From Hippopus hippopus (Eukaryota > Mollusca > Bivalvia > Cardiida > Cardiidae): a stretch of 64,000 nt of DNA. The position numbers and the translations under genes were made by a program. Positions 23,001-57,424 of this stretch are shown here, piece by piece. The DNA lies in contig OX328096.1 in assembly GCA_946811185.2 (NCBI GenBank), positions 40,250,011-40,314,010 of the forward strand, given 5' to 3'. Below the pieces are notes generated by a model. That model saw only the letters and a program-made list of their open reading frames with translations, was not told the DNA's origin and ran no database searches. Position 1 is the stretch's first letter; the number at the start of each line of letters is the position of its first letter.

Positions 23001-26000
23001 TTGACCAAGTTTGGTGCTGATTGGTTGATATTTGTAGATGCTAGAGTGTAAACAAAGTCAAATATAGCAATTTTTCTAATTCAAGGGCAAATAACTCCAG
23101 TTGTTCTGGTCCGATTACACCCATAATCGAACTCATCCGAGATCTTATGGTCAAATATATTTTGACTAAGTTTGGTGCTGATTGGTTAGTATTTGTAGAT
23201 GCTAGAGTGTAAACAAAGAAATGTGAACGAACAGACGACGGATGCCGATGGACGGTGAGTGATCCCAATAGCTTCGTGCTCAGATGAACTAAAAACATAG
23301 GTCAAGACTTTTCATTTACACAGAGTGAAAAAAATTTAAAAACATGACTGCTTTCTCACCATGTATGAAAAAAAAAAAAATCAGATTATGGTACAAAATA
23401 ATGTTATATCAGTATTTCATATCATATTTGAAGCCTTTGAGTTTGTGTGCCACAAAAACCCCAAAGAGATGGACAATGCGAACTATTTCTATAGGTGAAA
23501 AAGATCTATGTATGTACTTTAATTTCAAAGCTATCATCTTAATATTTTATAAAATCAGATTACCACTCAACAGAGCAAATTTAAGATCAGATTGCACATT
23601 CAGTGCAGTCCCACTGTAATGTCCACAAGTATAATTAGCATAACAATCTAAGGGTTAAGCAAAACAAAAAGAACAGCCTCTACACATAAGTCAACTTTTC
23701 AATGGAGTTTTCATAAAGAAATTACAGATTTAAATAAAAAGTGAGGTTTCAGTTTTGCCTTTGAAAGAAAGACCATGTCCTTCTTCTTTGGTTTTTAAAA
23801 AATCATACCGTTTTTAAAAAATCTCATATATAACTCTTTTTATACAAGTACATGCATATGATGATAGCTTTGAAAATGACAAAGAGGTAATGCTGTAAGA
23901 GTGACATAGAACAAGCACATAAGGTATTAAACATTAGCTTTGACTAACATGAGGATGCAACATTGATGTCAGTGCTTCAGAGCAATAGGGTAAGAAAGGA
24001 TTTTCCTATATCTTTGGAAAAAAATAAAAGCAAATGGGTATCTACATACAATAGTTTACCTCTCCTGTCTGGATTCAAAATGCAAAGACAAAGAGCTTAG
24101 AAATCTTTTGTTTGAAAAATATTTCCTTAAATATAATATGCAGCATTTATTTTGCCAATTTGGATTAGTTATAAGATTAGTAACACAAACAGGTATGTGA
24201 AAACTAGTATTTTGATTACTGGTACCATGTTAAAATACAAGTATCTACTAATTCTTTCTATTTTTCTTTTCTGAAAAAGAGTAACTATGAAATTGTTCTC
24301 ATTACGTGAAAGAAATTATGTAAGGCTAAGTAAATGTTTTTTTTGGGTTAAATTTTCAAGCTGATACATTTAACGCAAAGAAGACAAAATCAAAAACGGT
24401 AAAGTTAAAAAATTGGTTACCCAGGTTGACTGAACCAAGACAGTTGCAGCTGCCAGACTTGTTTTACAAAAATTTCTTAATAAAAACAAGTAAATGTTAA
24501 CCATGAGTAAGCTGCACTAGCTTAAGTCTGCAAATAAGCATTCAACAACATCCACTTTTAATTAAATATAATCAACATTCAAGTACTAAGGGTTCCTCTT
24601 GCATGACACTCTTCCCCATCACTGGGAAGGTGAATGTCAAGTTACATCAATAATTCAAAATATTTCATTGTAGGCACTCAATATGGACAAAATCTGACAA
24701 GAAACCTGAGCATATTCCTGAACTATTAGAAGTACAACACATGAAAAATTCTAGCATCATTTACAGGAAAATCTACCAACCTCTTGTCCGAGCTCCCTTA
24801 ATCTGGTTTTATATTTGTCAATTTTGGCATCTTGGTCTGTTAATAGGACCAACAAATCTTCTTGCTCTTTCTTCAGTGTTTCTAATTCATCAATTATTGC
24901 ACTTTTTTCACTATCCTTCTTCTTTATTTCTTCTTCCAATTTCTGAAAGGCAGGACAATCTATGTAAGTTTCTATTTTCAGTAAGAATTTGAAAAAAAAT
25001 CTTAAAGATACATCTTTACAGCCTGAGAATAAACAATCACTGTTCAAACTTACAGTGTGTAGAATCTAGTTAGCTGTGTAAACATAGATAAAAAATCGAT
25101 ACAAGGTGTATGGGATAAAGAAACGCAATGGATTTTCCTTTGATTTAAAACGGAAACTGTGGTTGTAATGTCTAGGGATAGTCTCCAGAGAATGAAATGC
25201 ATTTTCTATCCGCCGTAATCTGTGCAACTTTCCAACCATCAGGGGCAACATTTGGCACAAAATACAAGAATGATTATATGTTCATAAAAGATAAAATTGG
25301 TTAAAAAACTGGATGAAAATGAGTATAGATGTATCTTTTAGCATAACACCTTTTCACTGAAAGAGACAAACATCCCTGTAATACTAAGTGGCAAACTAGT
25401 GATGATCCTTTTCAAACAGATAACAATGATACAGACAATCTATACATAATTTTAAAAGGTTTGATACCAGAAAAAAAAAATCAATACAATGTAAAACAAC
25501 TTTTTTTTATAAATATATATATATTTTTTTCACTCATGCCAATACAACAGATAATTTACCACATGATTTTAATGTTGTATAAAATATTACTTAAGTAAAT
25601 ATAATGGGTTGCAGTGTAAAATTCAGGATTTTCATTTCATGGGATATCTGGGTATGCACAATAAAATGTGGGGAACAAGTGATTTTTTTAAGGAAGATAT
25701 ATATTTGCTTGCTACTGTAGTCAGGTCGGCAAAAATCACTATTTCAGACAAAGTAAGAGTTTGTCAGTAGGCCCCACCCACACATGTACAAATTGCTTAC
25801 CCAATACCATCATACTCAAGAAACACTGTTGTTTACATCAGAATACATGGCGTATCAATGCTGTAAACTAACTGAAGGCTTGTTATTGGAATTTTCAGAC
25901 TTGATTTTGTTGGACCAATCACGCCTTATAATAGTTTTCTGGAGGGACAATGGCTTATCAATAGTGTAATTTTCACAATGCCCTGGCCTAGATAAAACAC

Positions 26001-29000
26001 TGGAGTCAAGGGAAAGACCCTGCTTGTAATGGAAATGTTAAATTCTAACTTAATCATATCTTCCTCTTTACAATCTCATGATGCAATTCTGTTTTCTGGC
26101 AGATTAACATAGAGATATTTTTTAACATAAATACAAAGGGATACATTGTTAAATACTTTATTTATATAATTCCATACATATACAGTGTGTAATCTAGCAT
26201 ACGATCTATCAGAATAAAGACATGATCTCTAATGATACTGTAGATTTGCAAATTAAGCAATAAAAACACTCCACATAGTTATGAAAAGTAGTAGTGCAAC
26301 AATACACAAAGTTATACGAGTGTTACTCTGGCAAAAGTAGGCTTAGTGCATCTCCATGATGCATTATACCAAGCAAGACATCATAAAATAATGGATCCAT
26401 AACACTCGTTTTGTTTTACAACTGATGGAATAATGAGGTAGACTTGTCCTTTGACAAGCAGAAAATTGACTGATAGAAAAAAACTTAGACCAAGGTCAGC
26501 CTGGACTGCACAGGTTGACCTGGGTCTATACTTTTTACAGGTGCATTGTACTCTCATTTTAACAGAGCATGACTTGTATACATTGTATATATATATCAAA
26601 TTCTCATACATCTGTAACACAGGTGAACAGAAAACAACTCCCAAGAATTAAACCATTACAAGTGACAAGGAGGACAAATATTTAAAGGAAAATTTCGTTT
26701 TTAATGTAAACTCAGTCCAAAAAGTGAAATTAGTCAAAAACTGAGGTGTAAATAGCTATATCTGTAACAGGCTGATACTGAACCTGACTCTGTAACGTTG
26801 ACTTACATTTATTCTATCTATCAAATTGAGGTTTTCTTCATTGGCCTTTTTCACTCTCTCTTGTAAAGAATTCTTTTCCTCTCCTAATTGTGTAAGTTCG
26901 TCATTTATTGCAGCAAGTCTTGCTTCTAGCTCTGCTGAATTATTGTTAGTAGGAATAGATTGCTGAAAGGCAACAAATTAAATCTTATAGCTAGAGCTCT
27001 GAAAGTATGGATATTTCCAATCTGAAATGAAAATCAAGATATCAGATTTTAGAAGGTGCTTTAGACTTAAAAATAGGGAATACTGCAGATCCAACATCAG
27101 ACTGCACAGTCTGACCTTCACCCTTTACCAAACAGTCCTGGGTTTTCACAACCCTGAGAAAGAAGCCTTCTGAAAATGCTGGTAACCAGCATTTTCTCCT
27201 TTTCCCACAATGTTTTCCACTCTTCCCAAAACAAATTTCAATTTTTGAGTCACATTAATTTTGTTGTCTGCAAATGCTTCCAGTTTGGACTAGTCTAAAA
27301 TTATGTCGTTTGGTAAAGAGTTGATCTACACTATCATCATATGCAAAATTGTGCTTGGCTCTTTGTTGGTTATGCTTTAGTTAGAATACAAACTGGTAAA
27401 AATAACAAAAGCATATGAATTGATCAACCCTTATGGTCTTCATTCAGAAAGTGCCACGTGCAGTAAATGAAAAATACATTTTCACCCGTAGAGATGATCC
27501 AAATAATATAATGTCAGGGGTTTTTTCTGTAAAAAATGTCAAACAAAATGACAGATAGTGTAGATCCAAGATCTGAGATCCCTATTTGCCACATGATCCT
27601 AGCCTAAAAGTGTCTACAAAAGCAATAATAGTTGTATTTGGTATTCTCTGTGTAAAATCAATGTAACCCACATTTTCATCTGACTAATGGTTATGTGCAA
27701 GATTCTTCTAAAAAAATTTCATTTAGCAGTTTTAGCCATTAACAGTCACTGAACCTTTATGATCTAAATCCAAAAAATCCACATAAGCTAGAGAAGTTAC
27801 TTCTGAAATTTGAGTATAAATGGCTCAACAGTTTTTGAGTAAAGAAGATCTATGAAATGTTTATATTTACTTTTACCTTCAGACTTGCCTATACTGAAAG
27901 CATTTACAGACAACAAATGTTGCTCAAAGAAAAAGAAATTTATTTACTAGAAATAGGTGTGTCAGAGACACAGATGACCCCGCTAAATGGTATTGGTCAC
28001 AGGTATGTCATATGAGAGAATCAGTAGGTATTACAGAAAATTGTTGTTTTTGGATAACAGCTTAGACAGGGTTAAGAAGGTTTGTTATATATATAGCCAA
28101 GCAGATAAAAGATTATTTATACCTGATAATAAAATTGAGGACTGGTCCAAGTTGAAAGCAATATGCAGACAATAAATTATATGGTTTGTATTGCATATGG
28201 TAGAAAACTTTGTGAGAAAAAGATGAAAATGCTGGTTTTGAGCATTAACTTCTTTTTATTCAGCGTTTTCCTTAATTTTTCAACTGAGGGTTACTTATAC
28301 TCAGGATTATGAAGATCTTAACTTGAGGAATGAGAGTGAGAAATATAGCAATAATAATTATTTTGTTGGACTTCCTCTATGAGACAGGAACAAATTGGAT
28401 CAAATATTATCACACTGGACTATAGTTGAAGGGTAGGTTGCAGCCTCAATATTCTCTGGCATAGTTCTTTGGATGAGTCTTTTTAAAAACCAAAACTGTA
28501 TCTTCATATCACAATTCTGCTGAGCAGGATGTAAAACTGGGTTGAACAGTCAATTTAAACATTTGACCTTCAACTGTGACCTTGACCTTGGGCGTATCAA
28601 AACAAACTTTTCGCATGACACTAGTACTAGTTAAGGAGAACAAGTGTGCAAAGTTTTTTTGAAATCCATTGATAAATGTAGAAGTTAAGCGCCGGACAAG
28701 GTCAATTTAAACATTTGACCTTCAACTGTGACCTTGACCTTGGGTGTATCGAAACAAACTTTTCGCATGACACTAGTACTTGTTTAGGAGGACAAGTGTG
28801 CGAAGTTTTTTTGAAATCCATTGATAAATGTAGAAGTTATGCTCCGGACAAGGTCAATTTAAACATTTGACCTTCAACTGTGACCTTGACCTTGGGTGTA
28901 TCAAAACAGACATTTCACATGACACTAGTACTTGTTAAGGAGAACAAGTGTGCAAAGTTTTTTTTGAAATCCATTGATAAATGTAGAAGTTATGCTCCGG

Positions 29001-32000
29001 ACAAGGTCAATTTAAACATTTGACCTTCAACTGTGACCTTGACCTTGGGCGTATCGAAACAAACTTTTCGCATGACACTAGTACTTGTTAAGGAGAACAA
29101 GTGTGCAAAATTATTTTGAAATCCATTAATAAATGTAGAAGTTATGCTCCGGACAAGAATTGGACACACACACACTAATGCACACACGCACTAACACACT
29201 AACACACACAGACGGACACAGGTAACTCTATATGCCCTTCCGCCATTTCATGGCATAAAAATATGGCATGGGCATAAAAACAATACTATAATAACAGTAT
29301 GAGGGCTGTTCGGAAATTATTGAGACAATGTATGTTTTGAGAGTGAAACTTAACATATGTACATACAATTTTCCATAAACATGAAGTAACCTTTAATATA
29401 TTGAGACCTAAATGAAATCTGTATTAATTACCCATTATAATTGTATATCATCTAAAATCAACAAGAGGGATGAGTAACAGGAGCACGCGGTAAAAATGAG
29501 TTAGTTCAAATAAATCGCACTTGAATAAAAGCTTGAATAATATTAAAATAGCGGCGAAAAGTCAATTAAAATGATGCCATATACGCTACGTTATTCTGTC
29601 GAATTTCCGGTGAAGTTTCATAAAGTTCATGTAATAGATAAACAAGTTTTGACCATTTTCTGGAAGTTCGTGCTACCAAAGAAACAGCGACAAAATGGAT
29701 AACGACGTAAAGGCGGGGCAGCGAGCTTACATAAAGTTTTGCGTCGAGCTTGGAAAAACCCCTATTGAAACAAAAGAGATGTTAAAACATGACACGGAGC
29801 GGAAGAGGCCTGTCTCGGGCTCTTGTTTATCGGTGGCACAATTGGTTTGTGAAAGATGCATCATCTCTGTACATCACAAAAGGAGGTGGGGACCGACGAT
29901 CATCGACGTCTTTCCACATGTCAAGTCCCAGTTGAGAGGTACAAGATTCAATAATTCAGTGAATTGAAGACTGCGGCACTAAATGTGGTGAGGTAATTAG
30001 ATAGTGAATGATGTAAAACTGTAAGACAAATGGGCGCAGCGACATATGAAGTTAGATTGAACGGTTTTATTTTGAAAAGGAATGACATGCAATGGTGTAA
30101 ACGCAAGGTAATGTTGATAGGACGTCATGTTCAAAACGCCGTTGTGCTCCAGACGAGCAAGGTGGTATATTTCCGACAGGCCCCAACACTTATACAGAAG
30201 ACCCAGCGGCCTGATATTTGGCATGTATAAAGTAATAAAGTATATGTTATCTGTTATGAGATATTTCGTTTGTATGTCTTAACATTCTCATATAATAAGT
30301 GTTGTCTCAAAAATTTTCGAACAGCCCTCGTATAATTAAACAATTTGATTTTGAATTTTACATACCACATTTTGTATCTGTGACTGTAAGTTGGAATATG
30401 CTGTATTTAAATTGGTTAATTCTGCCTCTTTGTTTGATGTAACAACACGGAGTGCATGTAACTCGGAGTTCAATTTATTCACAGTTTGTTGTAACACAGC
30501 TATTTCACTAGGATTGTTTTCTTTATTTTCATCATTTATCTCCAACGATGCATTCACACGTGCCTCAGCCACAGTCAAATCTGTTTTCTAAAAGATATAA
30601 ATAAATAAAATCTATTGAAATCCAGAAATGTGATATGAAGGGTTAAGAAAACGTATTGCACCCCTCCAACAAACATCGACTGCCATTGAGTCTTTACAAA
30701 GCACCAAAATTTTGGACTTGTCCAAGACCAAAAAAACTGCAGAAAACAAGTCAAACATGGTTGAATTAATTGCATCTGTCTTTGAAAGGCTAGAAAACCT
30801 TGTAGGAAAAGGAGAAAATGCTAGTAACCAGCATTTTCTGCTTTTCCCACAATGTTTTCAAAAGCCCCTTTCCTCAAGATCAATTAAAGTTTGGATTGTG
30901 TGATACAGGGTTACAGTACTACCTGGACACCATTACACATTTTAGCAAACTCTTTCATGTGTGGTGCTTCACAGCTTAACTGCAAAACCTGAGGGGGTGT
31001 AATGCATCTGTGTGATGCTTTATAACAAGCAAGTCATCACATAAACACGGATCCATAAAATGAATCATGAGGTACAAAGATCCTTTGACAAGCAGAAAAT
31101 TTTAAAAAAGCAAACACATTAGACCCATGTCATACCTGTGAGGACTGCACAGGCTGACATCGTTGGATACTTTTAACAGATGCATTAAACCCTCTTTTCA
31201 TATATCATGGCCCATAATTAATTTTTTATTTAGTAAGATCTACTGAGGACTTTTGTGGAGCTATTGCAACCACTGAAAGTATTCAGATAGAGACAAAACT
31301 GGAAATGCCACTAACTGCAACTAATAAAAGCTCTAGGTCTATTGGACCAAGATTTCACCCTAATACTTTATACTGTACATCTAAATATACCATTTCAACC
31401 CAAGGCTTAAATGAGAGTCTTTGTTAAAGTCAACTGTGCGATACTAGAGAACAAATTTTATGTACAATGCATTATACCAAATACCATAGCTCTAGGCCTT
31501 ATTTACCCAGACAAGAAGCTCTTTCATTGACTGAATGGTATTTTACATTCAACATTAGTTCAGTCATGTCACAGTCACATCAAATTTATTCATGCTTTTG
31601 TTGCTTTCACTAGCTAGTACTAAGCTAGAGCTCTGATGTGCCTTGCCCATGGAAACTCACAGAAAAAAAAACCCAGCCATCAAGTGAGAAATGAACCCAG
31701 AGCCTTCAGGCTACAAAGCCTACAGCTTTATAACTGAACCAAGCAGCTCTTTCAAGTAATCATATAACACCTGTCACACCTAGAACAGGCCATCACTGAC
31801 CGCATGGACATGAATAAATTTTACAAGGACCTACTACAGCATGCTACATACACTGTAACCCTGTTAGAATGAACTTTACTGAAATGCTGACCCTACTGTA
31901 ACGCAGCTGTCCTATGGCTCCCAGAACTTTGGAGGGGTGGGGGGAATGGGGGTCGGTTTCACTATTTTCGAGTCTGATCCGAATCCACCATGACGCTGAT

Positions 32001-50000: not shown

Positions 50001-53000
50001 ATTATTGCATCAGCATATTCAGAGGGCTTTACACGGTTCTTCATATTTTAAATTTTCTCATAGTGAGAAAGATATCAATATGTGCCTTACTTCAAGCAAA
50101 ATATTCAATTTAGTCGGATTTTGCATTATAATTGAGAAAATGGGATAAATAAAACGGACGCTTGGTGTCTTGGATTGGGAAAGTCTATCAGGCTCGGCTC
50201 TGGAAATTTATTAAAGGTACGGTCTTTGTCAATGTTTCTGTTTTTTTTTTCGTTTGATTGTTTTGTTTTGTTCTGTTACAGTGAGTGACAGGATAAATAG
50301 AATAGATGGTTGGTGTCTTGGATGGGTTAAGTTTATTGGGCTCGGCTCCAAAATTTATCCGGTTCGCCTTCGGCTCACCAGATAAATTCCTCTGCCTTGC
50401 CCAATAAACTTAACCCATCCAAGACACCAACCATGTATTCTCAATATAAAGAGCCCTAGCAGCCATTAATGAGACAAATACAGATATTTACCATCATCAG
50501 TTGGTTCATTTGACATTACATTACACAATGCATCTAGGGCATAACCAGTAATTTCAGCATCGCTCCTGTCTGCCTCCAAGGTACGAACCAAAACGTCCAT
50601 TCCTTGTGTTCCTACCTCAAGTCGAAATTTCTGCATAAAAATAAAGATACTCCATAAACTTTATTCCTCTTCTAATTTACCTTTGTACAGAAAACCTTGG
50701 ATAAATCAAACAATTTTCAAGTAATTCGTTTGCCCACTATTTTTTTCAATTCTGTCCCTACATTTACACTTCATGTGACAAATTCATTCAATAAATTTGT
50801 TAAGAGCTATATATGTCATCTGAATATGTTTTCAAAATTGACAAGTATAGAGTTCTATCTTCTGGTATAAATTATTCCTTTACCATACGACAAAATTTTG
50901 GACAGGACCAAAATTGAAAGCATTTGCAGACAACGAATTATATGATGCTAATTTGATAATTCCTGTGTCTGATAGGGTAGAAAACATTGTGGGAAAAGGA
51001 GAAAATGCTGGCTACCAGCATTTTCTCCTTTTCCCTCAATGTTTTCAAAAGTCTCTTCTTTCAGGGTCGTTAAAAGTCGGGATAGTGTGGCAGAGGGTTA
51101 AGACATATTTACCCTTGGGTGACAGATGTTTCAGTAACAAACATGTCTGGTAAATTGAATTTGTATATATAATAATTTAATTATAGTAAACTGATTGGAG
51201 GTTTAAGTTATAAGGTGATTATTAAGTATCAATGCACTACCAAGAATTTCACACCCAATACTCAGCTTCCATTTGTTTCTCATGTCCTAAAAGGTAGAAA
51301 CTAGTTTTACAAATACATGTACTAGTGTCAGTGCTCATAAATTTAAAGAGTTAAATGATAAACAAATCGAAGCAAGGTATTGGGTGTGAAAAGCATCACA
51401 ACTTTGTTACCAAAACCAATCAATTTACCATATAAATTTAATCAACTGAACTTGTATGTTAGGAAATTACCCAATCTTACCCTTGATAATGCTTTAATTG
51501 CCCTGACTGCATCTCTTCTGTCATCCAGTAAAGTGGATGAAGATGCTCTGTCAACAAGTCTTTCAACCTGATAAAAAAACAACACATTTTGGTGGTATTG
51601 CTATGCAATGTGTTCAGGTGATGTCATCTAATTATGTCCCTTTCTCTAACCAATTGCTATTGCATGTGAGGGTTGTCAGATATGTTATTTTAAACAAAAA
51701 TATGATTTTAAATTGAAGAGGGGATATGATGCATAAAAGAAGTTTTAAAAGAAAATTTGAAGAAAACTATCAATTTTAAGCATAATACAAAACTAGGCCT
51801 TAATTTTTGATGGTCGTGATGAAAACACTGAAGTCTAAGATTTATCTGTATTTAACTCTTTACCAAACAACAAAATTTTAGACTTGTCCAAATTGAAAGC
51901 GTTTGCAGACGCCTTAATAAACGTGACTCAAAAATTGAAACTTGACTTTAGAAGAGTAGAAAACACTGTGGGAAAAGGAGAAAATGCTGGTTACCAGCAT
52001 TTTCTCCTTTTCCCACAATGTTTTCAGAAGGCTTCTTCCTCTGGGTCGTAAAAGCCAGGGATTGCTTGGTAAAGGGTTAAGCAGTGTCTGTTCTAGGATG
52101 TGGATTGCAGGATTCATGCTAATTTTCCTCAGACCCTGCAGAAATTCAGACCTAATGTGTGACAGTTCAGGGTTAAAAATCAACATTGAAAAATCATTTG
52201 AATATAGCAGCATCATTTCCAGCTGTTTTGCAGCATATTACCTCCATTGAAGTAACCTCCCTTGACAGGAAGTTAGTCAAAATGGCCCACTTCCAAAATG
52301 ACCAGGACTGTGTGACAACACTGTTAATTCATCATAAAATGCCCCAGAAAAAAAAAAACCCTTCAGAGCATAATCCTGAAAAATACCCTGTTGGATGTTG
52401 CTTGCCAAGTTTGTGGCATATTACAAGAAATGTAAATGAATCTTGAAATGATGAATAAATCAAGACTTGGGCAGTGTTCAATCTAGCTTTGCTGTAAGGA
52501 GGCCCATTGGGCCCACAAACATCAAGATAGGGGGTCATTTTGGAAAGCTGGGGGCCACATATAAAAATCAAATAAAATATGTACAAAAATCATTATATCA
52601 CTGGAATTTAACCCATTTATTTAACTAGTGTATTCTCATTCATGTATCCATGAATACTATGCTAAGGCCTAACAAAAAAATATCTGTGTTTAGGGTTTCA
52701 GTCCGAGATACTGTAGGTAGGGTAGGTAGGGATTTATTTTTTTTTCCAAAAACTTTTTACATGGAACATGTAATGAAATCACACCCGACAGATTTTTTTT
52801 TTTTCAATCATAGCAAAAAAAATTTAGTGTCGGCAGCATTTTCTAGGTAGGGTAGGGAAACCCTAAACGCAGATATTTTTTTTTAGGCCTAATAAAACTG
52901 CAACATTGCAGAAATTATCATTGTTATTGATGCAACCTTATTTTCGCCATTAATCTAACCCTTAATAAAATGACGGAATATGTCTCTAAATGGTAGACCT

Positions 53001-56000
53001 TCAAAAATTCTGACATCCTGTAGGTATTTGACTTCTCTGTCGATTACTCAAACTACAGTTTATAAATCTAATTTTCTCATTATACCAACCAATTTTTTTA
53101 ACCGATTGTCCAAAACTTGAACGGGCAGAAGCTATTTTGGTTGAAACTCGCCCCTCTGTGAGGTTTTATTATTGTAGCTTGAATTAGGGGTAGGTACTGG
53201 CCCAAATGTGCTTTCTGAAGTGTTATTTTCAATAGGTTTTGCAATTTTTGCCCTATTTAGGCTTTCAAAACACTCAGAAATTTACTTCATTGTGAAGTTA
53301 ATTGATCAATGGAATTTGACAGATTTGTAACCAAACTGGTACCCATTGCATTTATAGTAACCATACAATATGATAATAGTAGGATACCAGTCTGGTCCCT
53401 AACCATAACATGTCTGGTTATTAATGAATTCTTACTGGAAAGCGCAGTATCATCTATATTTAGTGGAAAGAGCAGAAACGAATCTGGGACTTTTGGGGGC
53501 CTATGGCTAAATGGTTCGCTCTAGATTGAACACTGTTTCGGTATTCACCATTTAAACATTCATTCCACAGGTATCCTCGACCGTCCATGATCTGTACCCA
53601 TAAGAAAGGATCGATCACCAATCTTTCAATCTACGGAGATATCTTTAATAATAGCAGCTACATAGGTGAAAAAGACTTATTGGATTACTTTGAATGACTG
53701 TTGTTGATTTATTTCTCATTGCTTCTGATTATTTTAACTCTGTTGTTCTGGGGAAGTTAGAAACATTGTGGAAAATGGAGAAAATGCTGGTTACCAGCTT
53801 TTTCTCCTTTTCCCACAATGTTTTCAAAGGCTTTCTTTTTCTTGGTCGTTATAAGTCAGGATTGTGTGTTAAAGAGTTAACTATGTTTAAAACCAACATT
53901 GATCACATTCTGTTCCTGGGGCTACCGTCCTTGAATTGAGCCACAAATGGATGATGTCATACAGACTTAATTTACAGGCCAAAATTAATTTCAAGTGGAG
54001 TAATCATTGTTATGTTAACTCAGGAATGAAATCATACAGGATACTTAAGGATTTTCGCAGAAATAAGTCTGGGATTCTTTCTCACTAGAAATGTCATGGT
54101 TTAATTGTCAAAAGGGGAAAAAACATGCGACAAAGGCCATATTTGGGGAAAATTTACTGTCTTGCTATATATGTTGGTGTACATCATTATACATGTATGT
54201 GATATACATTAAACATTATGTACTATCAAAAGAACACTGGAATTAATCTTTGCAATAACACTTACATGTATATATATGAAACTGAATTAAACTGTTTTGT
54301 GAATACTGAACTCTCATTTACTCTTGGGCCCAAATTTTCAAGAGTCAAAATGGAATTTCCGAGAGTCAAAGAGAAATGTCCAAGGGTCAAGATTACTTGA
54401 TTATCATGGAGAGATAAGGATGAAATAAAGACAATTTTTCATTCACACTCTTTGTTGATGGCAACAAATTAGACAAGAAAATACCTCATCTTATGTACAA
54501 ACTAGTTGAAATGAAGTGGATAGAAGAATTTTAAATCGCAGCCCTAGAATGCAATTCATCTGTATGAACTTACAGACGAAAAATACCTTTTAACTGTTTA
54601 CCAAAGAACAAAACTGTAGACTTGATCATGTTTTAGACATTTACAGATAACAATTCAAATGTGGCTGAACGATTTGATTTGTATTTCATTGCCTAGAACT
54701 TTGTGGAAAAGGGAGAAAATATTTAGATCAAATCTATTAAATCCATTAAAGTGTTATTTCTTTAAATTTTAGTCTTCTGTTTTGGTCCTATTATGTCTTC
54801 TTTCACACTTGTTCCAGTGCTAATACTGTAAGACAAGAAGGCCTATCCTCCATCCCCCCACCATCTATCCAGATAATCTACAAAGATTGTGTATTTTTAC
54901 TGCAAAAACAACAAAAGTTTTTCCTAATTTAGACTCAATCTAGGTCTAGTTTGTTTCTTGAGAAATACAATTTGTCAAAGATCTTCATCAGAAGTTAAAC
55001 TAGATCCAGTAAGAAATCAGCGATTGCTGATCTTCGTCACTTCGCACGTAAATACAATCCGAAACTCAATTGAGAGGAAAAAAAGTCTGCTATTCATTTA
55101 CATTTGTGATCGGTTCCCATAAAGTCTGATACATTTCACCGAAATTATTAACTGAAATAAAATTATCGTGGATTTTTCCAGGTTAGTTTGTGAAAAGTAT
55201 CAAAAAAAATGATTATACAACCTGAATATCCCAACTTTATGTTTTTATAATGCTTGAATGTGGAGAGAAATATGACTTTTTCCCGTCTGCAGAATTTGTC
55301 TGAAAGTGATCTAAAAATAGAACAAGGAAAATCTGGTTTTCTGGAAGTGTCATTGGTTACCTCCCTTCCATGAAAATTTTCGTACATTTTCCTTCGAGTT
55401 TATAAAGGTTATAGCGATATGTAATCTATTTTGCATCTCCTTTCTTCTTTTCTTTCCTTCTTTGTCAGGCATTATGTAGCAATATTGGAGCGTGTTACGG
55501 GAGACCACTCCTTCATGCATGGCTTCGTCCCGATTTAAATACAATACCTAACAACTGCGTTAGGGAGATGTCTCTTTAGCTCAGTGGTTATGGTATTGGA
55601 TCTTTTAAACCTCGAAAAACGAGGATATTTGCCCGTCATGGGTTCGAATCCTGCCAAAGGCAGTTTTATTTCAGCTATGCATTTGTTGCGGACTTCCATG
55701 TTCGTAAGATGGGGGCTCGTCTGGGATTGGCCATTGAGCCATTAATCCCATTTGTTGTTGTCCAAAAGTGGACATTTGTTGTCTAAATAATAGACTTACT
55801 GCCTAATAAGGCTTTGAGTCATCAATAAATGATGACTTTAAGAGGGGGGGTGTTACGGGACATCACTCCTTCACGCATGGCTTCGTCCCGATTTAAATAC
55901 AATACCTAACAACTGCGTTAGGGAGATGTCTCTTTAGCTCAGTGGTTATGGTATTGGTCTTTTAAACCTCGAAAAACAAGGATATTTGCCCATCATGGGT

Positions 56001-57424
56001 TCGAATCCCGCCAGAGGCAGTTTGTATTTCAGCTATGCATTTGTTGCAGACTTCCATGTTTGTAAGAAGCGACCTAGACGATTTTAGCGTGAATCGCGCA
56101 CATCGCCCTTGTCCAGAATAAACACTAACTATTGGTGTCCATGTTTTTTTTAATGCTCGAAAGAAAGCGTTGAATATCAAATTAATGCTGGATTCCAGTA
56201 TTTTTTCGTATTATACCACAAGCATGTTCAGATTATTCCGTGCACTGAATGAATAGAAAGTACAAAAACAGCCAATTAGTGGCGGTTTTTCCACGAATCT
56301 CAAAGGCGGATGTCTCATTATACAACAAAAGTATCGGTTGTCTTTGCAGCTGATATTTCGGTCTGGGATTGGGTTCATTAACTAAATCTTAGTACAGTAC
56401 TTTTTATTACAGCAGGGAAAGTCGATTTCTAAGGGGAAAATTGGTTGCTTGGGGGGAAACTACATCTTTGGGGAAAAATTTGTTGAGGGGAAGACGCCGA
56501 CTATCAGCGTCACTTTCTTAGTAAAAAAAAAAAACCCTGATAATTGTCAGTTAAGATTGGCGTATTTTATGGTCAAAAAAAATTTTGCTTTACATATTTA
56601 CCCAGACCTAATGGAACTACTGAATCATGAATTTCATCTATGTGAAAAATTATTCAAAAATAGTAGTCTAGTCAGCCATATACAAAATTTTAAGGTATGA
56701 ATAATTTGCAATGGAAAAGCAACAAGGTTAAATGTAGTTGTATTTTTATTTAGATATCTTCTTACTTGTGTAAGTCCAACTTGAAAGCATTTGCAGATGA
56801 CAGAATAAATGTGACTCAAAATTTGAAATTTGTTTTGTGAAGGATTGAAAACACTGTGGGAAAAGGAGAAAATGCTGGTTACCAGCATTTTAAAAAGCTT
56901 TCTTCCTCAGGGTCGTTAAAAGTTGGGATTGTGTGGTAAAGGGTTTCAAGGTGGGACTCACAAAATTTGTTTCAGGCTCGTAGTTTTCCATCCTGGTGAG
57001 TCCCTGGACTCACTTATGGCAAAATGTAAAAAAATCACTGATTATTAAAAACAAAACGCCAAAGAAAGTCCCCTTTAGCTGCGGTTATGCAATCTTCCCC
57101 GCTAAATCTCATGTTATTTCATAATTGCTTATAGAACTAAATGAACATATTATCTAAACGCACTAAATTCCTTATAAACACATCCTAGATAGTAAAATAC
57201 TGATAGAAGATATTCACCCCACCCACCAAGAATACATAGGCTTTAACCGGTTCCCTATATAGCATTAAGATCAAGTGCAATCTTAAAAAAGAAGTTCGTT
57301 GCGAATTTCTCGTGCTTTTGAAATAGTGCATAAAATTAAATATCGATAGATAACACACTGTTTCAGCCCCAGTCGGTTGTTCTCCACCTTGAGCAGGTCC
57401 AAGATATTTCCGGAAGTACTCCAT
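20046..57424 (-). CDS. USO1: USO1/p115 general vesicular transport factor, complete 22-exon gene
   Basis: p115 is the peripheral Golgi tether that links COPI/COPII vesicles to GM130 and giantin under Rab1 and promotes SNARE assembly. CDS = complement of 22 exons totalling 2838 nt, 945 residues plus TAG, all phases compatible. Vertebrate p115 is about 960. Start MEYFRKYLGPAQGG at 57424 has a strong Kozak context (AAGATGG); MRHSSK lies in frame just upstream. Residues 1 to about 640 form the armadillo-type head, with near-identical blocks such as VEDCLLLLLNLLKNN, SNQNFFREGS, GWSAQKVTN, ITAGQLLCGGLFSSDSLSNW and NPPVSLLQQC. Residues about 645-928 are heptad-rich coiled coil. The tail ends EEDL-type QEDLLVLLTDQDAKI, then nine Asp in a row and LEDGDES. 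Introns are full of MITE-A hairpins. Identity is secure. Confidence 0.97.
20199..20404 (-). mobile_element. MITE-A copy, USO1 last intron
   Basis: TTAACCCTTTCCCACACAATCC to TTTGGTACAGCGTTAA, TTAA at both ends. Shortened core (aagaagttgctggtaacaaac). Confidence 0.87.
21030..21258 (+). mobile_element. MITE-A copy, USO1 last intron, near-perfect hairpin
   Basis: TTAACTCTTTACCAAACGAC to GTGTGGTAAAGAGTTAA. The palindrome runs from gaaaacattgt to acaatgttttc with a single mismatch region (ttttcgaac versus gtgggaaaa). Confidence 0.92.
21506..23294 (-). repeat. Array element I, inverted copy in USO1 last intron
   Basis: Reverse-complement relative of 11091-13056: starts AACAAGAGGACCATCATGGT, holds the about 167-bp monomers first, then about five 160-bp monomers with GTAGATGCTAGAGTGTAAAC, and ends GACGGTGAGTGATCCC..GTGCTCAGATGAAC. 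Monomer order mirrors the + copy exactly, giving two inverted arms of about 1.8-2 kb separated by 8.4 kb. Confidence 0.85.
23295..24780. other. USO1 last-intron remainder
   Basis: AT-rich; a MITE-B scrap near 23583, poly-A tracts. No exon or element recognised between the inverted array element and exon 21. Confidence 0.5.
24781..24942 (-). CDS. USO1: USO1 exon 21, end of coiled coil
   Basis: 54 codons: KLEEEIKKKDSEKSAIIDEL, ETLKKEQEDLLVLLTDQDAK, IDKYKTRLRELGQE. KKEQEDLLVLLTDQDAKI is nearly identical to the vertebrate C-terminal block KKEQDDLLVLLADQDQKI. Donor gttggtag, acceptor tgcctttcag. Confidence 0.96.
24943..26334. other. USO1 intron, no recognised element
   Basis: AT-rich with poly-A/T and ATATAT tracts near 25480-25530. 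Nothing recognisable up to the MITE-C copy at 26335. Confidence 0.5.
26335..26578 (-). mobile_element. MITE-C copy, USO1 intron
   Basis: About 240-bp family whose reference copy is 36889-37137. Here: gcattataccaagcaagacatca, tcctttgacaagcagaaaattg, gcctggactgcacaggttgacctgg, aacagagcatgact. Confidence 0.75.
26807..26962 (-). CDS. USO1: USO1 exon 20, coiled coil
   Basis: 52 codons: QSIPTNNNSAELEARLAAIN, DELTQLGEEKNSLQERVKKA, NEENLNLIDRIN. Phase 0 at both ends. Acceptor gcctttcag, donor gtaagtc. Confidence 0.9.
27116..27325 (-). mobile_element. MITE-A copy, USO1 intron
   Basis: TTCACCCTTTACCAAACAGTCC to TTTGGTAAAGAGTTGA, centre GGTAACC. The left arm is truncated at gaaaatgctgg, so only a short hairpin can form. 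Confidence 0.87.
28128..28315 (+). mobile_element. MITE-A decayed copy, USO1 intron
   Basis: Recognised by ggtccaagttgaaagcaatatgcagac, ggtagaaaactttgtgag and gaaaatgctggttttgagcatt. A separate scrap of the left spacer lies at 27888-27935. Confidence 0.6.
28549..29270 (-). repeat. Array element IV (152-bp monomers), USO1 intron
   Basis: Four highly similar monomers starting GTCAATTTAAACATTTGACC at 28549, 28701, 28853 and 29005, followed by a (CACA)-rich microsatellite (29160-29210) and the end GCCATTTCATGGCATAAAAA. Monomers contain TGACCTTGACCTTGG, the complement of two ERR-type half-sites. Confidence 0.82.
29300..30330 (+). mobile_element. Deleted mariner-type transposon, USO1 intron
   Basis: Terminal inverted repeats of about 28 bp (GAGGGCTGTTCGGAAATTAT left; the right end is its complement with few changes) flanked by TA at 29298-29299 and 30331-30332. 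Length 1031 bp, too short for a full element of about 1.3 kb. It carries a broken transposase N-terminus at 29695-29967. Confidence 0.85.
29695..29967 (+). pseudogene. Mariner transposase N-terminal remnant
   Basis: QRAYIKFCVELGKTPIETKE then ML matches the first helix-turn-helix of mariner transposases. The frame then shifts: SRALVYRWHNWFVKD, the next conserved piece, lies in another frame. No DDD catalytic region is recognisable before the right terminal repeat, so the copy cannot be autonomous. Confidence 0.75.
30366..30587 (-). CDS. USO1: USO1 exon 19, coiled coil
   Basis: 74 codons: KTDLTVAEARVNASLEINDE, NKENNPSEIAVLQQTVNKLN, SELHALRVVTSNKEAELTNL, NTAYSNLQSQIQNV. Phase 0 at both ends. 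Sequence conservation is low but the heptad pattern and splice sites (tatcttttag, gtatgt) are good. Confidence 0.9.
30687..30914 (+). mobile_element. MITE-A copy, USO1 intron
   Basis: TTGAGTCTTTACAAAGCACC to GATTGTGTGATACAGGGTTA, with a near-perfect core (gaaaatgctagtaaccagcattttc). The left spacer is partly replaced (gaccaaaaaaactgcag). Confidence 0.87.
31000..31215 (-). mobile_element. MITE-C copy, USO1 intron
   Basis: gatgctttataacaagcaagtcatcac, tcctttgacaagcagaaaatt, gaggactgcacaggctgac. Right end decayed (tatcatggcc). Confidence 0.7.
31610..31755 (-). mobile_element. tRNA-derived SINE (family 2), USO1 intron
   Basis: On the - strand: head GCTGCTTGGTTCAGTTATAAAG, B box GGGTTCATTTC, then a poly-T tract and 3' end CAGAGCTCTAGCTTAGTACT. 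Confidence 0.6.
32519..32799. mobile_element. Possible hAT-like element with CAGTGTTT ends, USO1 intron
   Basis: CAGTGTTTCTCTCA on the left and AAAAAACACTG on the right (8-bp inverted match), 281 bp. No target duplication is evident, so the boundaries are tentative. Confidence 0.4.
32952..33064 (-). CDS. USO1: USO1 exon 18, coiled coil
   Basis: Encodes GSKQVDDEKEDEIKKLNENI then QKLNLQLTEKDSHIDKL. The acceptor gaattccag at 33065-66 was chosen over an AG 14 bp downstream because only the former restores phase with exon 17. Donor gtaagtat is excellent. Confidence 0.9.
34012..34150 (-). CDS. USO1: USO1 exon 17, coiled coil
   Basis: Encodes DGRLRETQGQLESIQSKYDL, SCKQLEELTQQVQQLKDQNA and LLKATK. 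Clear heptads. Donor gtaaaaagatc, acceptor tgttttgtag. Ends phase 1. Confidence 0.92.
34398..34555 (-). mobile_element. MITE-A partial copy, USO1 intron
   Basis: CACCTATTACCAATTATTCC at the left, then tgaccgtgaggataaagccttttgaa and core gaaaatgcttgttatcagcattctc. The right end is lost next to a poly-A tract. Confidence 0.75.
34655..34887 (-). mobile_element. MITE-A copy, USO1 intron
   Basis: TTAACTCTTCACCACAAAATC at the left and TTTCATAAAATGTTAA at the right. Core arms are gaaaacattgtgggaaaag and cttttcccacaatgttttc; the inner loop is decayed. It ends about 95 bp from USO1 exon 16. Confidence 0.85.
34982..35100 (-). CDS. USO1: USO1 exon 16, first coiled-coil exon
   Basis: Encodes EILKSLSPNANREETKKQLA then NLKEHESIVSQYKDLIQEQ. 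HESIVSQYKDLIQEQ parallels vertebrate HDNIVTHYKNMIREQ, the start of the coiled coil. Donor gtaaatatat, acceptor ttttttaccatgcag. Confidence 0.94.
35634..35815 (-). CDS. USO1: USO1 exon 15, end of head domain
   Basis: Encodes ASLRQVIEKRIGLETFTDKL, then RAIKKPDLNYRQPSEVVFDF and EFTRLFKAQE. FDxEFTRL is the p115 signature at the head-to-coiled-coil boundary. Donor gtgagtac, acceptor gtcttatag. Confidence 0.95.
36090..36860 (+). mobile_element. MITE-A remnants, USO1 introns
   Basis: A weak scrap at 36090-36170 (agaaaatgtgttggaaaaggagctaatg) and a better 5'/3'-truncated copy at 36675-36860 (tgaaagtagttgcagatgac, gtgactcaaatgatgg, core gaaaatgctagttacaagcattt). USO1 exon 14 lies between them. Confidence 0.6.
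36457..36578 (-). CDS. USO1: USO1 exon 14
   Basis: Encodes LISQVSASDGDENEQNVHGL then CAFLLGICVLCNDDQNQSFT. GLCAFLLGIC matches the vertebrate GLCALLLGIC helix. Donor gtaagttat, acceptor taactgttagacag. Confidence 0.95.
36889..37137 (+). mobile_element. MITE-C reference copy, USO1 intron
   Basis: GAGCCATGCTCTGTGAAAAG on the left; CCCTTTTGCAAGAGTTTGGCTC on the right, an imperfect inverted pair. Inside is the small palindrome GCCTGTGCAGTCCATGCAGGC. 249 bp. Confidence 0.78.
37400..37510 (-). CDS. USO1: USO1 exon 13
   Basis: Encodes GGRIQTRIGILMLLAAWMSD then CPTAVAHFLFNTANVPY. I chose the donor gtatcctttg because reading past it adds residues ending in a stop, whereas NVPY joins exactly to LISQVSASD as NVPFLTGQI does in vertebrates. 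111 nt, phase 0. Confidence 0.93.
38140..38345 (-). CDS. USO1: USO1 exon 12, most conserved head block
   Basis: Encodes NTITAGQLLCGGLFSSDSLS, NWFASVALLNAIVENPTQKE and QLLRVQLATSVGNPPVSLLQ, ending QCCNILAQ. Nearly identical to animal p115 throughout. Donor gtatatat, acceptor tgattacttcag. Residues 418-486. Confidence 0.98.
38959..39113 (-). CDS. USO1: USO1 exon 11
   Basis: Encodes PAIVVLLMSMVNEKQPFSLR, CAVLYCFQSFLYKNEVGQSQ and IVQTLLPTSAD. Donor gtaagtcaac. It opens the conserved Uso1/p115 head segment. Residues 367-417. Confidence 0.96.
39975..40203 (+). mobile_element. MITE-A copy with TTAA at both ends, USO1 intron, near-perfect palindrome
   Basis: TTAAGTCTGTACCACACAAC to GATTGTGTGGTAAAGGGTTAA. 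The core pairs continuously from gttgtgggaaaagg to ccttttcccacaat; the only break is near the centre (ggtaaccaac). Confidence 0.92.
40390..40607 (-). mobile_element. MITE-A copy with TTAA at both ends, USO1 intron
   Basis: TTAACCCTTTACCACACAATCC to GTTTGGGAAAAGGTTAA, centre GGTAACC. An internal deletion removed ggaaaagg from the left arm. It is 183 bp from the preceding copy and in opposite orientation. Confidence 0.9.
41307..41474 (-). mobile_element. MITE-A 5'-truncated copy, USO1 intron
   Basis: Starts at gaagaaaatggcttctgacaatg, keeps cactttctccttttcccacaatg and ends TCTATTAAAGGGTTGA. The left TIR is missing. It ends 88 bp from USO1 exon 10. Confidence 0.78.
41562..41650 (-). CDS. USO1: USO1 exon 10
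   Basis: Encodes TINTVSEVIRGNLQNQEYFA then SVMAPSNPP, ending in a split Arg codon. Donor gtaatggtt, acceptor tttatttacag. Residues 337-366. Confidence 0.95.
41765..41945 (-). mobile_element. SINE (family 1) diverged copy, USO1 intron
   Basis: Reverse copy: tatttaatgcctttttcaacatcatttcag, ggggccagtgcacctatccgtgc, then a decayed head (aattcaaaccagcaacccc, cccactgcacaacatgggc). Confidence 0.65.
42212..42418 (-). mobile_element. MITE-A decayed copy, USO1 intron
   Basis: TTCACCCTTTACAACACAATGCC at the left; core reduced to ggaaccagcatttccttcttt; right end decayed. Confidence 0.72.
42489..42680 (-). mobile_element. MITE-A copy abutting USO1 exon 9
   Basis: TTAACCCTTCACTACACAATC at the left, near-perfect core (gaaaacattgtgggaaaagg to ccttgtctcacaatgttttc, centre ggtaagc). 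It runs to aatttggacga and lacks the right TIR, ending about 25 bp from the USO1 exon 9 donor. Confidence 0.85.
42705..42769 (-). CDS. USO1: USO1 exon 9
   Basis: Encodes LAQQLCGILMASGVPADVLT then E. At 65 nt it is the shortest internal exon. Donor gtactgtag, acceptor catttttctag. ASGVPADVLTE followed by TINTVSEVIRG in exon 10 is diagnostic of p115. Confidence 0.95.
42828..43005 (+). mobile_element. MITE-A decayed copy, USO1 intron
   Basis: AACCTTTAACAGATGACAAAG at the left and gagaaaaggagaaaatgtggga at the core. The right half is reduced. It lies about 60 bp upstream of the USO1 exon 9 acceptor. Confidence 0.7.
43185..43262 (-). mobile_element. SINE (family 2) 3' part, USO1 intron
   Basis: Contains ACTAGTACTAGGCTAGGGCT, the shared 3' end read on +, plus aaaaaacccagtggatcc. 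All three family-2 copies lie in the same direction. Confidence 0.5.
43335..43618 (+). repeat. Exact 142-bp tandem duplication
   Basis: Unit 1 43335-43476 and unit 2 43477-43618 appear identical base for base, starting GTCTAGAAGGAATTTTGCAA. The junction falls inside CTGTGCAGTC of a MITE-C palindrome. Confidence 0.9.
43409..43794 (+). mobile_element. MITE-C copy with internal exact duplication, USO1 intron
   Basis: GAGCCAAGCTCTGTAAACAG occurs at 43409 and again at 43551, because 142 bp are duplicated exactly (43335-43476 = 43477-43618). Right end CCCTTTTGCAAGAGCAGGGCTC. Confidence 0.85.
43852..43927 (-). CDS. USO1: USO1 exon 8
   Basis: Encodes LVRSLVSPSNPQQQIANCQK then AMYSC. Acceptor ttctgtatttcag, donor gtatgttg. 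Residues 290-314, ending phase 1. Confidence 0.94.
44203..44744. mobile_element. hAT-like non-autonomous DNA element, USO1 intron
   Basis: Ends CAGGGGTGTAAAA / TTTTACACCCCTG, flanked on both sides by TGCAA (44198-44202 and 44745-44749) as a 5-bp duplication. Sub-terminal inverted pieces include acttgtcccgtaggac and gtccaacaggacgag. 542 bp, no coding frame. CAGGGGT ends suggest hAT, although hAT normally duplicates 8 bp. Confidence 0.75.
44828..45018 (-). CDS. USO1: USO1 exon 7
   Basis: Encodes IVVEDCLLLLLNLLKNNTSN, QNFFREGSHIKYLTPFFELD and GWSAQKVTNIHLLLQ. Donor gtaggtacc, acceptor ctgtttcag. Residues 226-289. Confidence 0.96.
45755..45875 (-). CDS. USO1: USO1 exon 6
   Basis: Encodes ALLLLNQLTKGNANIQKIVA then FENAFERLLDIIHEEGGIDG. 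Donor gtttgtctga is weak but the phase (1 out) and homology fit. Residues 186-225. Confidence 0.95.
46210..46368 (-). CDS. USO1: USO1 exon 5
   Basis: Encodes EYDFHVRWPTVKLLTILLTN, then ILVHPMGVSKLMDLLSDSRE and IIRND (residues 133-185). Phase 0 on both sides. Donor gtgagtttta. One of the most conserved p115 blocks. Confidence 0.96.
46491..46712 (-). mobile_element. MITE-A copy, USO1 intron, near-perfect palindrome
   Basis: GTAAACCTTTACCACATAATCC to CAGGTGGTAAAGGGTTAA. The core arms pair fully around ctggtagccag. Only one end keeps TTAA. Confidence 0.9.
46797..47003 (+). mobile_element. MITE-A 5'-truncated copy, USO1 intron
   Basis: Starts in the spacer (agacctttaggcttgtctaaat) and ends GAGAGTTTGGTGAAGGGTTA. 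The core right arm is decayed. It sits 85 bp from the preceding, opposite copy. Confidence 0.78.
47054..48426. repeat. Array element V (degenerate monomers), USO1 intron
   Basis: Starts AAGAGGGCCACTGGCTCTAC and ends GTGGTCAGGTGAGCTAAAAA, the same kind of termini as element I. Internal diverged units share TGACCTACTTTTTGACC and ACATTCTGACCAAGTTTCAT (about 47290-47370, 47430-47540, 47580-47670, 48080-48180, 48230-48330). Confidence 0.7.
48745..49010. repeat. Fragment of an array-type element, USO1 intron
   Basis: Contains CTATGACCTTGACCTTGAGC, a CACACACATACATACAAACAC microsatellite, ACAGACAGGGG and the end CCCCTTTTTATGGTGGGGGCG. It resembles one monomer plus the terminus of elements II and IV. 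Ends about 30 bp from USO1 exon 4. Confidence 0.55.
49040..49143 (-). CDS. USO1: USO1 exon 4
   Basis: After a short acidic DDEVPNHFPDDL linker it reads GGQFTEIFTKKSDNIGLLLS then LLE. Acceptor ttttcattatcaag, donor gtgaatctg. Residues 98-132; matches the QFTEIFIKQQENVTLLLSLLEE segment of vertebrates. Confidence 0.93.
50210..50440. mobile_element. Foldback element, second copy, USO1 intron
   Basis: Palindrome core 50300-50440 (ggttggtgtcttgg / ccaagacaccaacc), preceded by the shared ggtacggtctttgtcaatg flank. A partial, older piece of the same element (cttggtgtcttggattggg) lies just left at 50160-50210. Confidence 0.8.
50492..50630 (-). CDS. USO1: USO1 exon 3
   Basis: Begins KFRLEVGTQGMDVLVRTLEA, continues DRSDAEITGYALDALCNVMS and ends NEPTDD. 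Acceptor atttttatgcag, donor gtaaatatct. Residues 52-97; armadillo-type helices. Confidence 0.95.
50876..51101 (+). mobile_element. MITE-A copy, USO1 intron, near-perfect palindrome
   Basis: TTCCTTTACCATACGAC to GATAGTGTGGCAGAGGGTTAA. Arms pair from gaaaacattgtggga to tccctcaatgttttc around ggctacc. Confidence 0.9.
51481..51567 (-). CDS. USO1: USO1 exon 2
   Basis: Encodes VERLVDRASSSTLLDDRRDA then VRAIKALSR (residues 23-51), the first helices of the head and highly conserved. Donor is gtaagattgg; a second gtaattt 10 bp downstream is rejected because it would add residues absent from homologues. Confidence 0.95.
51852..52080 (+). mobile_element. MITE-A copy with TTAA at both ends, USO1 intron 1
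   Basis: TTAACTCTTTACCAAACAAC to GATTGCTTGGTAAAGGGTTAA. The palindrome spans gaaaacactgtgggaaaagg to ccttttcccacaatgttttc with one mismatch and centre GGTTACC, about 67 bp in all. Confidence 0.93.
52482..53535. mobile_element. hAT-like element with 15-bp perfect TIRs, USO1 intron 1
   Basis: CAGTGTTCAATCTAG at 52482 and CTAGATTGAACACTG ending at 53535. No matching target duplication is visible, and no transposase frame. Another MITE (52665-52890) is nested within it. Confidence 0.72.
52665..52890. mobile_element. Nested MITE with AGGCCTAA ends
   Basis: Inverted termini of about 34 bp: AGGCCTAACAAAAAAATATC..TTTAGGGTTTC and GAAACCCTAAA..GATATTTTTTTTTAGGCCT. Interior has GGTAGGGTAGG at both sides and poly-T tracts. 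It sits inside the hAT-like element, so it inserted later. Confidence 0.8.
53748..53880 (+). mobile_element. MITE-A 5'-truncated copy, USO1 intron 1
   Basis: Begins just before gaaacattgtgg and ends GATTGTGTGTTAAAGAGTTAA. The hairpin is largely kept (gaaaatgctggttaccagctttttc). Confidence 0.82.
54590..54722 (+). mobile_element. MITE-A 3'-truncated copy, USO1 intron 1
   Basis: TTAACTGTTTACCAAAGAAC at the left, then spacer and gtggaaaagggagaaaat, where it stops; the right arm of the palindrome and the right TIR are absent. Confidence 0.72.
55571..55664 (+). other. tRNA-like sequence in LTR1
   Basis: A box TAGCTCAGTGG (55577-55587) and B box GGTTCGAATCC (55641-55651) are both perfect Pol III promoter matches. 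Between them are CTTTTAA (Lys-UUU-like anticodon loop) and a perfect stem CCTCG-aaaaa-CGAGG placed like a long variable arm. Acceptor and D stems pair poorly, so it is tRNA-like rather than a functional tRNA. Confidence 0.7.
55929..56021 (+). other. tRNA-like sequence in LTR2
   Basis: Same unit as in LTR1: A box 55935-55945, B box 55998-56008, both intact. The variable-arm stem has one mismatch (CCTCG..CAAGG) and one A is deleted before the anticodon loop. Confidence 0.7.
56770..56945 (+). mobile_element. MITE-A copy with deleted right arm, USO1 intron 1
   Basis: Starts in the spacer (gtccaacttgaaagcatttgcag) and ends GATTGTGTGGTAAAGGGTTT. The deletion falls exactly inside the palindrome: gaaaatgctggttaccagcatttt joins aaaagc. 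Confidence 0.82.
57359..57424 (-). CDS. USO1: USO1 exon 1, start codon
   Basis: ATG at 57422-57424; encodes MEYFRKYLGPAQGGEQPTGA then ET, donor gtgtgt. Phase 0 joins directly to VERLVDRASSS in exon 2, as AETIQ..CDRVASS does in vertebrates. An in-frame upstream ATG at 57440-57442 would add MRHSSK. Confidence 0.88.

Follow-up and report, generated by a model that had tools for sequence, protein, structure and literature searches.

A Helenus-type TRIM family with tRNA-like LTRs and a row of internal hairpins in the bivalve Hippopus hippopus

The locus and the element

We have analyzed a window of 64,000 nucleotides, the whole stretch of DNA considered here, from the genome of the bivalve Hippopus hippopus. 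Exons of the gene for p115 (USO1, vesicular transport factor) extend over 24760-51522 on the minus strand. A frame at 38086-38373 matches the p115 structures 3gq2 (E 2.9e-31) and 2w3c (E 7.3e-31), and further p115 exons were read by eye, one of them near 51522; the candidate first-exon frame of this gene gave no match in the PDB search. Tandem arrays with a period of 152-162 bp are found at 11186-12133, 12152-12866, 15555-16316, 18435-18906, 21696-23218 and 28549-29157, those at ~11-13 kb and 21.6-23.2 kb containing long inverted copies of one another (91-94% across 630-670 bases). Besides, an abundant interspersed repeat with the palindromic core GAGAAAATGCTGGTAACCAGCATTTTCTC appears in many places, for example at 7970-8090, 21139-21259 and 51961-52081.

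Upstream of the p115 exon near 51522, and in the opposite orientation, we found a TRIM of 575 bp located at 55493-56067. The self-comparison of the window delimited two LTRs of 217 bp with an inner domain of 141 bp between them, and no second match of comparable size to the LTR repeat was found within the window. The two LTRs are 95.0% identical and differ by 9 substitutions, of which 8 are transitions and 6 fall at CpG as our script defines it, and by 2 one-base indels. The PBS adjoins the 5' LTR directly, and 17 of its 18 bases are complementary to the 3' end of tRNA-Pro. The mismatched position reads C, the base that matches tRNA-Pro, at 80 of the 85 listed genome sites, Gypsy elements included. 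There are five stop-to-stop frames of at least 120 aa in the window, none of them overlapping the TRIM. A first-pass annotation of this DNA had described an element with these limits, LTRs of this length, a tRNA-Pro PBS with 17 of 18 bases, a PPT, AGCG target-site duplications (TSDs) and about nine differences between the LTRs, and all of this was found as described. The A and B boxes that it placed in each LTR are also present, while the variable-arm-like hairpin that it gave to both is fully paired in the 5' LTR, with one pair broken in the 3' LTR. The features, in window coordinates, are the following.

55489-55492, + strand: left copy of the TSD, AGCG (from the LTR self-comparison)
55493-55709, + strand: 5' LTR, 217 bp, starting with TGTTACGGGA and ending with GTAAGA
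55534-55541, + strand: TATA-like TTTAAATA of the 5' LTR, ~30 bases ahead of the tRNA-like unit
55570-55662, + strand: tRNA-like unit, 5' LTR (limits placed by aligning it with its 3' LTR counterpart)
55577-55587, + strand: A box TAGCTCAGTGG of the 5' LTR
55603-55606, + strand: TTTT of the anticodon loop (CTTTTAA), 5' LTR
55610-55624, + strand: variable-arm-like hairpin CCTCG-AAAAA-CGAGG, 5' LTR (read from the sequence)
55641-55651, + strand: B box GGTTCGAATCC of the 5' LTR
55664-55667, + strand: private TTTT immediately following the tRNA-like unit, 5' LTR
55710-55727, + strand: PBS of tRNA-Pro type, 17 of 18 bases
55723-55749, + strand: hairpin H1, outer stem GGGAT..ATCCC and inner TGGC-CATTGA-GCCA, overlapping the end of the PBS
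55759-55774, + strand: hairpin H2, missing from some copies
55781-55795, + strand: hairpin H3, missing from some copies
55801-55812, + strand: hairpin H4
55817-55837, + strand: hairpin H5, 8-bp stem beside the PPT, with AATAAA in the loop at 55824-55829
55840-55850, + strand: PPT AAGAGGGGGGG
55851-56067, + strand: 3' LTR, 217 bp
55928-56019, + strand: tRNA-like unit of the 3' LTR (55927-56020 by ARAGORN, as tRNA-Lys(TTT); Rfam tRNA, 26.8 bits)
55935-55945, + strand: A box TAGCTCAGTGG of the 3' LTR
55960-55963, + strand: TTTT of the anticodon loop, 3' LTR; putative 3' end of the RNA
55998-56008, + strand: B box GGTTCGAATCC of the 3' LTR
56068-56071, + strand: right copy of the TSD, AGCG

Family size, age and known relatives

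We searched the host genome (1,068,471,763 bases in 34 contigs) with the TRIM and found at least 43 matches, 40 of the 3082 first-look candidates having been scored. For a divergent subfamily, 40 of 3283 candidates were scored, and at least 41 matches, counting the query copy itself, covered nearly the full length at 84% or above. The family is abundant in this genome. We fetched 40 loci with their flanks, the window copy among them, and judged 37 after setting aside three in tandem (L034, L040 and L046). Perfect TSDs were found in 32 of these, 30 of 4 bp and two of 5 bp (L028 and L031); 26 were recognised directly and 6 after extending the 3' end of the element. In the other five loci the TSDs agreed at 3 of 4 bases. 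As many as 25 different sequences appeared among the 32 perfect TSDs, and L026 and L027, which have common flanks, were counted as a single insertion. Such a search had been named beforehand in the first-pass annotation as its refuting test, and the outcome spoke for a mobile family. The absence of a comparable repeat elsewhere in the window and the recurrence of the entire unit across the genome, flanked by TSDs, exclude a chance arrangement.

The Kimura distance between the LTRs was obtained for 30 of 39 copies, the other 9 being left out because the match to the 3' LTR was truncated, and had a median of 0.055 (range 0.014-0.091). The value of the window copy was 0.043, only slightly under the median, so that its insertion, which had been called fairly recent, is recent only in a relative sense. 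The TRIM also exists in tandem arrays, seen as overlapping matches and, among the H5 pattern sites, as spacings of 323 and 364 bases. Three LTR subfamilies could be distinguished: S1, to which the window copy belongs, S2, with another U5 end, and S3, with LTRs ~80% identical. Short exact patterns of the LTR, the PBS and the variable arm found no relatives in prokaryote genomes and viral contigs; we regarded a lone 20-base match in Gardnerella as accidental.

There is a published class with this organization. TRIMs with tRNA-like LTRs are known as Helenus from fungi, animals and one plant (Kojima 2024, PMC10886601), bivalves included, and the initial impression that no animal TRIM carries a tRNA-like LTR has to be abandoned. 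We assign the family described here to Helenus by the features that define the class. Like Helenus, it is short and non-autonomous with two LTRs (575 bp, the published total being 311-1263 bp), has tRNA-derived A and B boxes in both LTRs, weak as tRNA in our case, has a PBS to a tRNA 3' end and a PPT, makes the 4-bp TSDs of animal Helenus and forms a multi-copy family (PMC10886601). The molluscan members were aligned with tRNA-Lys-TTT, the type that ARAGORN calls here, and tRNA-Pro is among the primers of the bivalve families (PMC10886601). However, all 51 bivalve families published come from Pteriomorphia (PMC10886601), whereas our host is a cardiid and thus a heterodont; the family may widen the host range of Helenus beyond Pteriomorphia among bivalves. 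Kojima proposed that a SINE insertion in an LTR founded Helenus long ago and regarded Gypsy as the likely helper, stating that Pol III transcription of Helenus (TRIMp3) was unvalidated and that the maintenance of the TRIM-helper dependence was not known (PMC10886601). In the main text of that paper neither 'hairpin' nor 'heterodonta' appears, and 'terminat' only in one passage on Cassandra (PMC10886601). Among the literature matches listed we found no further work on Helenus, or on hairpins or packaging in Helenus. Within the literature searched, the row of hairpins, the shortage of TTTT and the Gypsy family with the same PBS and similar ends seem to be undescribed, and we consider these additions worth following.

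Other small elements were compared as well. Cassandra, a plant TRIM, has a Pol III promoter inside each LTR, and its RNA runs from the 5' LTR to the 3' LTR and is terminally redundant over 18 bp (as given in PMC10886601). The RNA logic is the same as that proposed below; however, the promoter unit of Cassandra derives from 5S rRNA, unlike the tRNA-like unit found here. Membership of Cassandra or Ajax was rejected because a tRNA match was the only one listed by Rfam in 55300-56300 (E up to 10), with no 5S rRNA, and membership of the retrozymes because the same search gave no hammerhead match. In bivalves, biv-TRIM is described as a TRIM with terminal repeats of 202-218 bp, an inner domain of 77-80 bp and tandem arrays, with no clear PBS and with a conserved TGATCCCAAAGGAC segment (Satovic et al. 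2019, PMC6934838). The inverted repeats of its inner domain can form a hairpin in several species (PMC6934838), so that hairpins in the middle of a bivalve TRIM have a precedent. The LTR length, the tandem arrays and the inner hairpin potential are similar to ours, but our inner domain measures 141 bp and the PBS is clear. We rejected membership of biv-TRIM on that inner domain and because TGATCCCAAAGGAC, even with 3 mismatches allowed, had no match inside the TRIM. The text of that paper contains neither Pol III nor polymerase III, and neither box nor target site (PMC6934838). Finally, tRNA-derived SINEs (SINE2) share the promoter of A and B boxes and are non-autonomous, but our element has LTRs, a PBS, a PPT and short fixed TSDs, which indicate reverse transcription and integration of the LTR type.

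Pol III signals and internal hairpins

The tRNA-like unit is a feature of the family, as had been suggested from the window copy. Among 39 aligned copies, the window included, a loose A-box match occurred in 33 of the 5' LTRs and 36 of the 3' LTRs, the exact B box GGTTCGANTCC in 26 and 28, and both boxes jointly in 22 and 25, respectively. A check with a tRNA model had been recommended in the first-pass annotation. In the window copy ARAGORN called a tRNA-Lys(TTT) in the 3' LTR only, and the Rfam tRNA model gave this unit 26.8 bits, under the curated threshold of 29, the 5' LTR being unlisted; the unit is therefore tRNA-like and not a normal tRNA gene. In the family ARAGORN called 12 of 78 LTRs, every one of them Lys. 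No LTR reached the Rfam threshold in the 20 loci searched (of the 40 fetched), five of which showed weak matches of 23.3-27.0 bits. The mean pairwise difference of the whole unit was 0.096 in the 5' LTR and 0.084 in the other, the highest of the main regions, the internal region having 0.060. Within the unit, the A box region had 0.044 and is well kept, in contrast to the B box region with 0.084, so that the argument from conservation applies to the A box alone.

The T-runs had a peculiar distribution. In 38 copies we counted 83 runs of four or more T, compared with 208 expected from shuffles, and 68 of the 83 sit in the context C-TTTT-A. A-runs in the same copies were above expectation (115 vs 85). 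These copies are related members of one family, so that the deficit of TTTT amounts to one observation and the counts are not independent. No T-run other than the CTTTTAA of the anticodon loop is retained across the family; this one is present in 36 of 38 5' LTRs and 31 of 38 3' LTRs (bin counts). AATAAA was found in none of the 38 5' LTRs, in one 3' LTR and in 36 internal regions, and the weaker poly(A) signal ATTAAA in three 5' and three 3' LTRs. Going by the 3' LTR, 31 of the 38 other copies have the TATA-like TTTAAATA. A position about 30 bases upstream, as this box has, also fits Pol III genes.

The 112 bases that follow the PBS contain five perfect stem-loops in series (H1 to H5). Together they have 27 stem bp vs 8.2 expected, a value reached by none of 2000 shuffles, and five or more hairpins appeared in 0.55% of the shuffles. 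The MFE of the internal region had a z of -4.7 on each strand; as both strands fold equally, the folding is silent on whether RNA is the working form. Within the subfamily of the window copy there were no two-sided changes in 1216 cells, with 57 broken and 14 one-sided cells, the subfamily being too young for covariation. For a wider sample we took the 85 PBS matches of the genome in which the next base is not T, cut out 50 loci, and used the 25 with a recognised start of the 3' LTR plus two domains of L088. This last locus contains a tandem S3 array (~4.4-7.5 kb, reverse complement), in which one internal stretch of ~2 kb lies between a normal PBS and an H5-like end with a PPT; the Gypsy query protein did not match this stretch.

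With strict motifs, in which point changes are scored as a loss, H1 was found in 51 of 66 internal domains, H2 in 50, H3 in 42 and H4 in 58. In some copies H2 or H3 is missing as a whole unit, and each of them is preceded by an identical ATTTGTTGTC. For H5, the best 8-pair stem at its place had at least 7 pairs in 64 of the 66 domains, with a variable loop. Its outer pair is generally A-T and is T-A in subfamily S3, that is, a compensated change, although it may be a single event. In the 66 domains the outer pair was A-T in 46, T-A in two and A..A in one, 17 being changed elsewhere in the stem. Genome-wide, the A-T pattern gave 1463 sites and the T-A pattern 297, 1760 intact H5 forms together, with none for the reversed-pattern control; these are pattern matches, not placed individually in elements.

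Candidate helpers and proposed replication

We found two Gypsy families with the same PBS as the TRIM. The first (L082, L086 and L087) has end repeats at least 99.7% identical and has therefore moved recently. The Pfam order in L087 is SCAN, zinc knuckle, integrase, reverse transcriptase and RNase H, with the integrase first and SCAN in the Gag part, an order known as Gmr1-like. This family was rejected as the helper: it has the tRNA-Pro PBS in common with the TRIM, but its ends differ, and the U5 end was not above shuffles. The likeness of its PPT region to that of the TRIM was reached by 42 of 3000 shuffles, which makes the PPT test a weak one. The second family (L083-L085 and relatives) is distantly related to the first; its domain order is the same by local protein match in one copy (L081). 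Its LTR termini are TGTTATG..CGTAACA, the clear-ended copy (L085) has a 4-bp TSD, and its PPT CTTTAGGAGGGG is close to CTTTAAGAGGGG of the TRIM.

The first-pass annotation had suggested looking for autonomous elements with matching ends, and this second Gypsy family answers in part, with the same PBS and similar ends but uneven support from shuffles. Its likeness to the TRIM was reached by 1 of 3000 shuffles for the U5 end of S2 and by 9 and 16 of 3000 for the PPT plus LTR start. For the U5 end of S1, the subfamily of the window copy, the figure was 137 of 3000, and for S3 95 of 3000. The region after the PBS gave 50 to 501 of 3000 across six copies, two other Gypsy controls giving 866 and 2588. 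The longest open frame on the element strand in the five loci listed for this family was 328 aa. The uneven results and the many comparisons made lead us to keep it as a lead, and the sequence likeness suggests it, rather than the first family, as the candidate helper. Other helpers may exist, because our PBS pattern excluded elements with T after the PBS.

We propose that the TRIM would be transcribed by Pol III and mobilised in trans, judging from the signals in its sequence. Pol III would begin close to where the tRNA-like unit of the 5' LTR starts, pass the weak CTTTTAA of its anticodon loop and the internal region poor in T-runs, and stop at the CTTTTAA of the 3' LTR or at a flanking T-run. 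The product would be a terminally redundant RNA, with U3 of ~77, R of ~35 and U5 of ~100 bases. The Gag of a helper Gypsy would bind the string of internal hairpins and package this RNA, tRNA-Pro would prime reverse transcription, the plus strand would begin at the PPT and the integrase of the helper would make the 4-bp TSDs. Because Pol III would have to read past any terminator inside R in the 5' LTR, termination must be leaky for the model to work. The private TTTT of the window copy (55664-55667), found in none of the 38 other aligned copies, may cut off the full-length Pol III RNA at that point. Taken as a whole, a Helenus-type TRIM family that would depend on Pol III and on a helper Gag is probably the best explanation. 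Its most specific form is a mini-genome in which R would go from the tRNA start to the TTTT of the anticodon loop, the rest would be nearly free of terminators, and modular hairpins, gained or lost as units, would be recognised in trans by an integrase-first Gypsy. We offer it tentatively and think it rather unlikely to hold in every part.

A chance SINE insertion in one LTR of this copy, which then spread to the other LTR, is scarcely credible as an origin, since the unit is present in both LTRs across many independent insertions and also in the subfamily with ~80% identical LTRs; as an event in the window copy it is already refuted. The element might also be an ordinary Pol II TRIM that starts at TTTAAATA, with a fossil SINE or tRNA fragment in the LTR whose boxes are passengers. 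The frequency of TTTAAATA would agree with this, as would the few ATTAAA in the LTRs and a tRNA-like unit that is under the Rfam threshold and, as a whole, the least conserved of the main regions. However, few stretches are conserved as well as the A box, the LTRs are almost devoid of AATAAA and TTTT is rare outside the anticodon loop. Besides, the internal AATAAA precedes the PPT, so that polyadenylation there would remove the 3' R region. We judge the Pol II alternative improbable.

The role of the hairpins is more debatable. They could be inverted repeats produced by template switching, or act at the DNA level or in plus-strand priming beside the PPT, and not as a packaging signal. The ATTTGTTGTC that precedes both H2 and H3 and the loss of whole units in some copies are what template switching would give, both strands fold equally, and a Gypsy family with the same PBS folds a hairpin beside the PPT in the copies folded (without shuffle control). 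On the other hand, the retention of H5 in nearly all domains and the compensated pair between subfamilies speak against it. We lean away from this reading while granting it a considerable chance.

With a large family, subfamilies ~80% alike and a candidate helper, two questions become testable in one animal, namely whether Pol III transcribes a retrotransposon into terminally redundant RNA and by which features a short RNA is selected for packaging by a Gypsy Gag. If our reading is true, no Helenus would have been reported before from bivalves outside Pteriomorphia, nor one for which a structural packaging region is proposed together with a candidate helper in its own genome. For annotators, LTRs of this kind can be called as tRNA genes, and perhaps as SINEs too.
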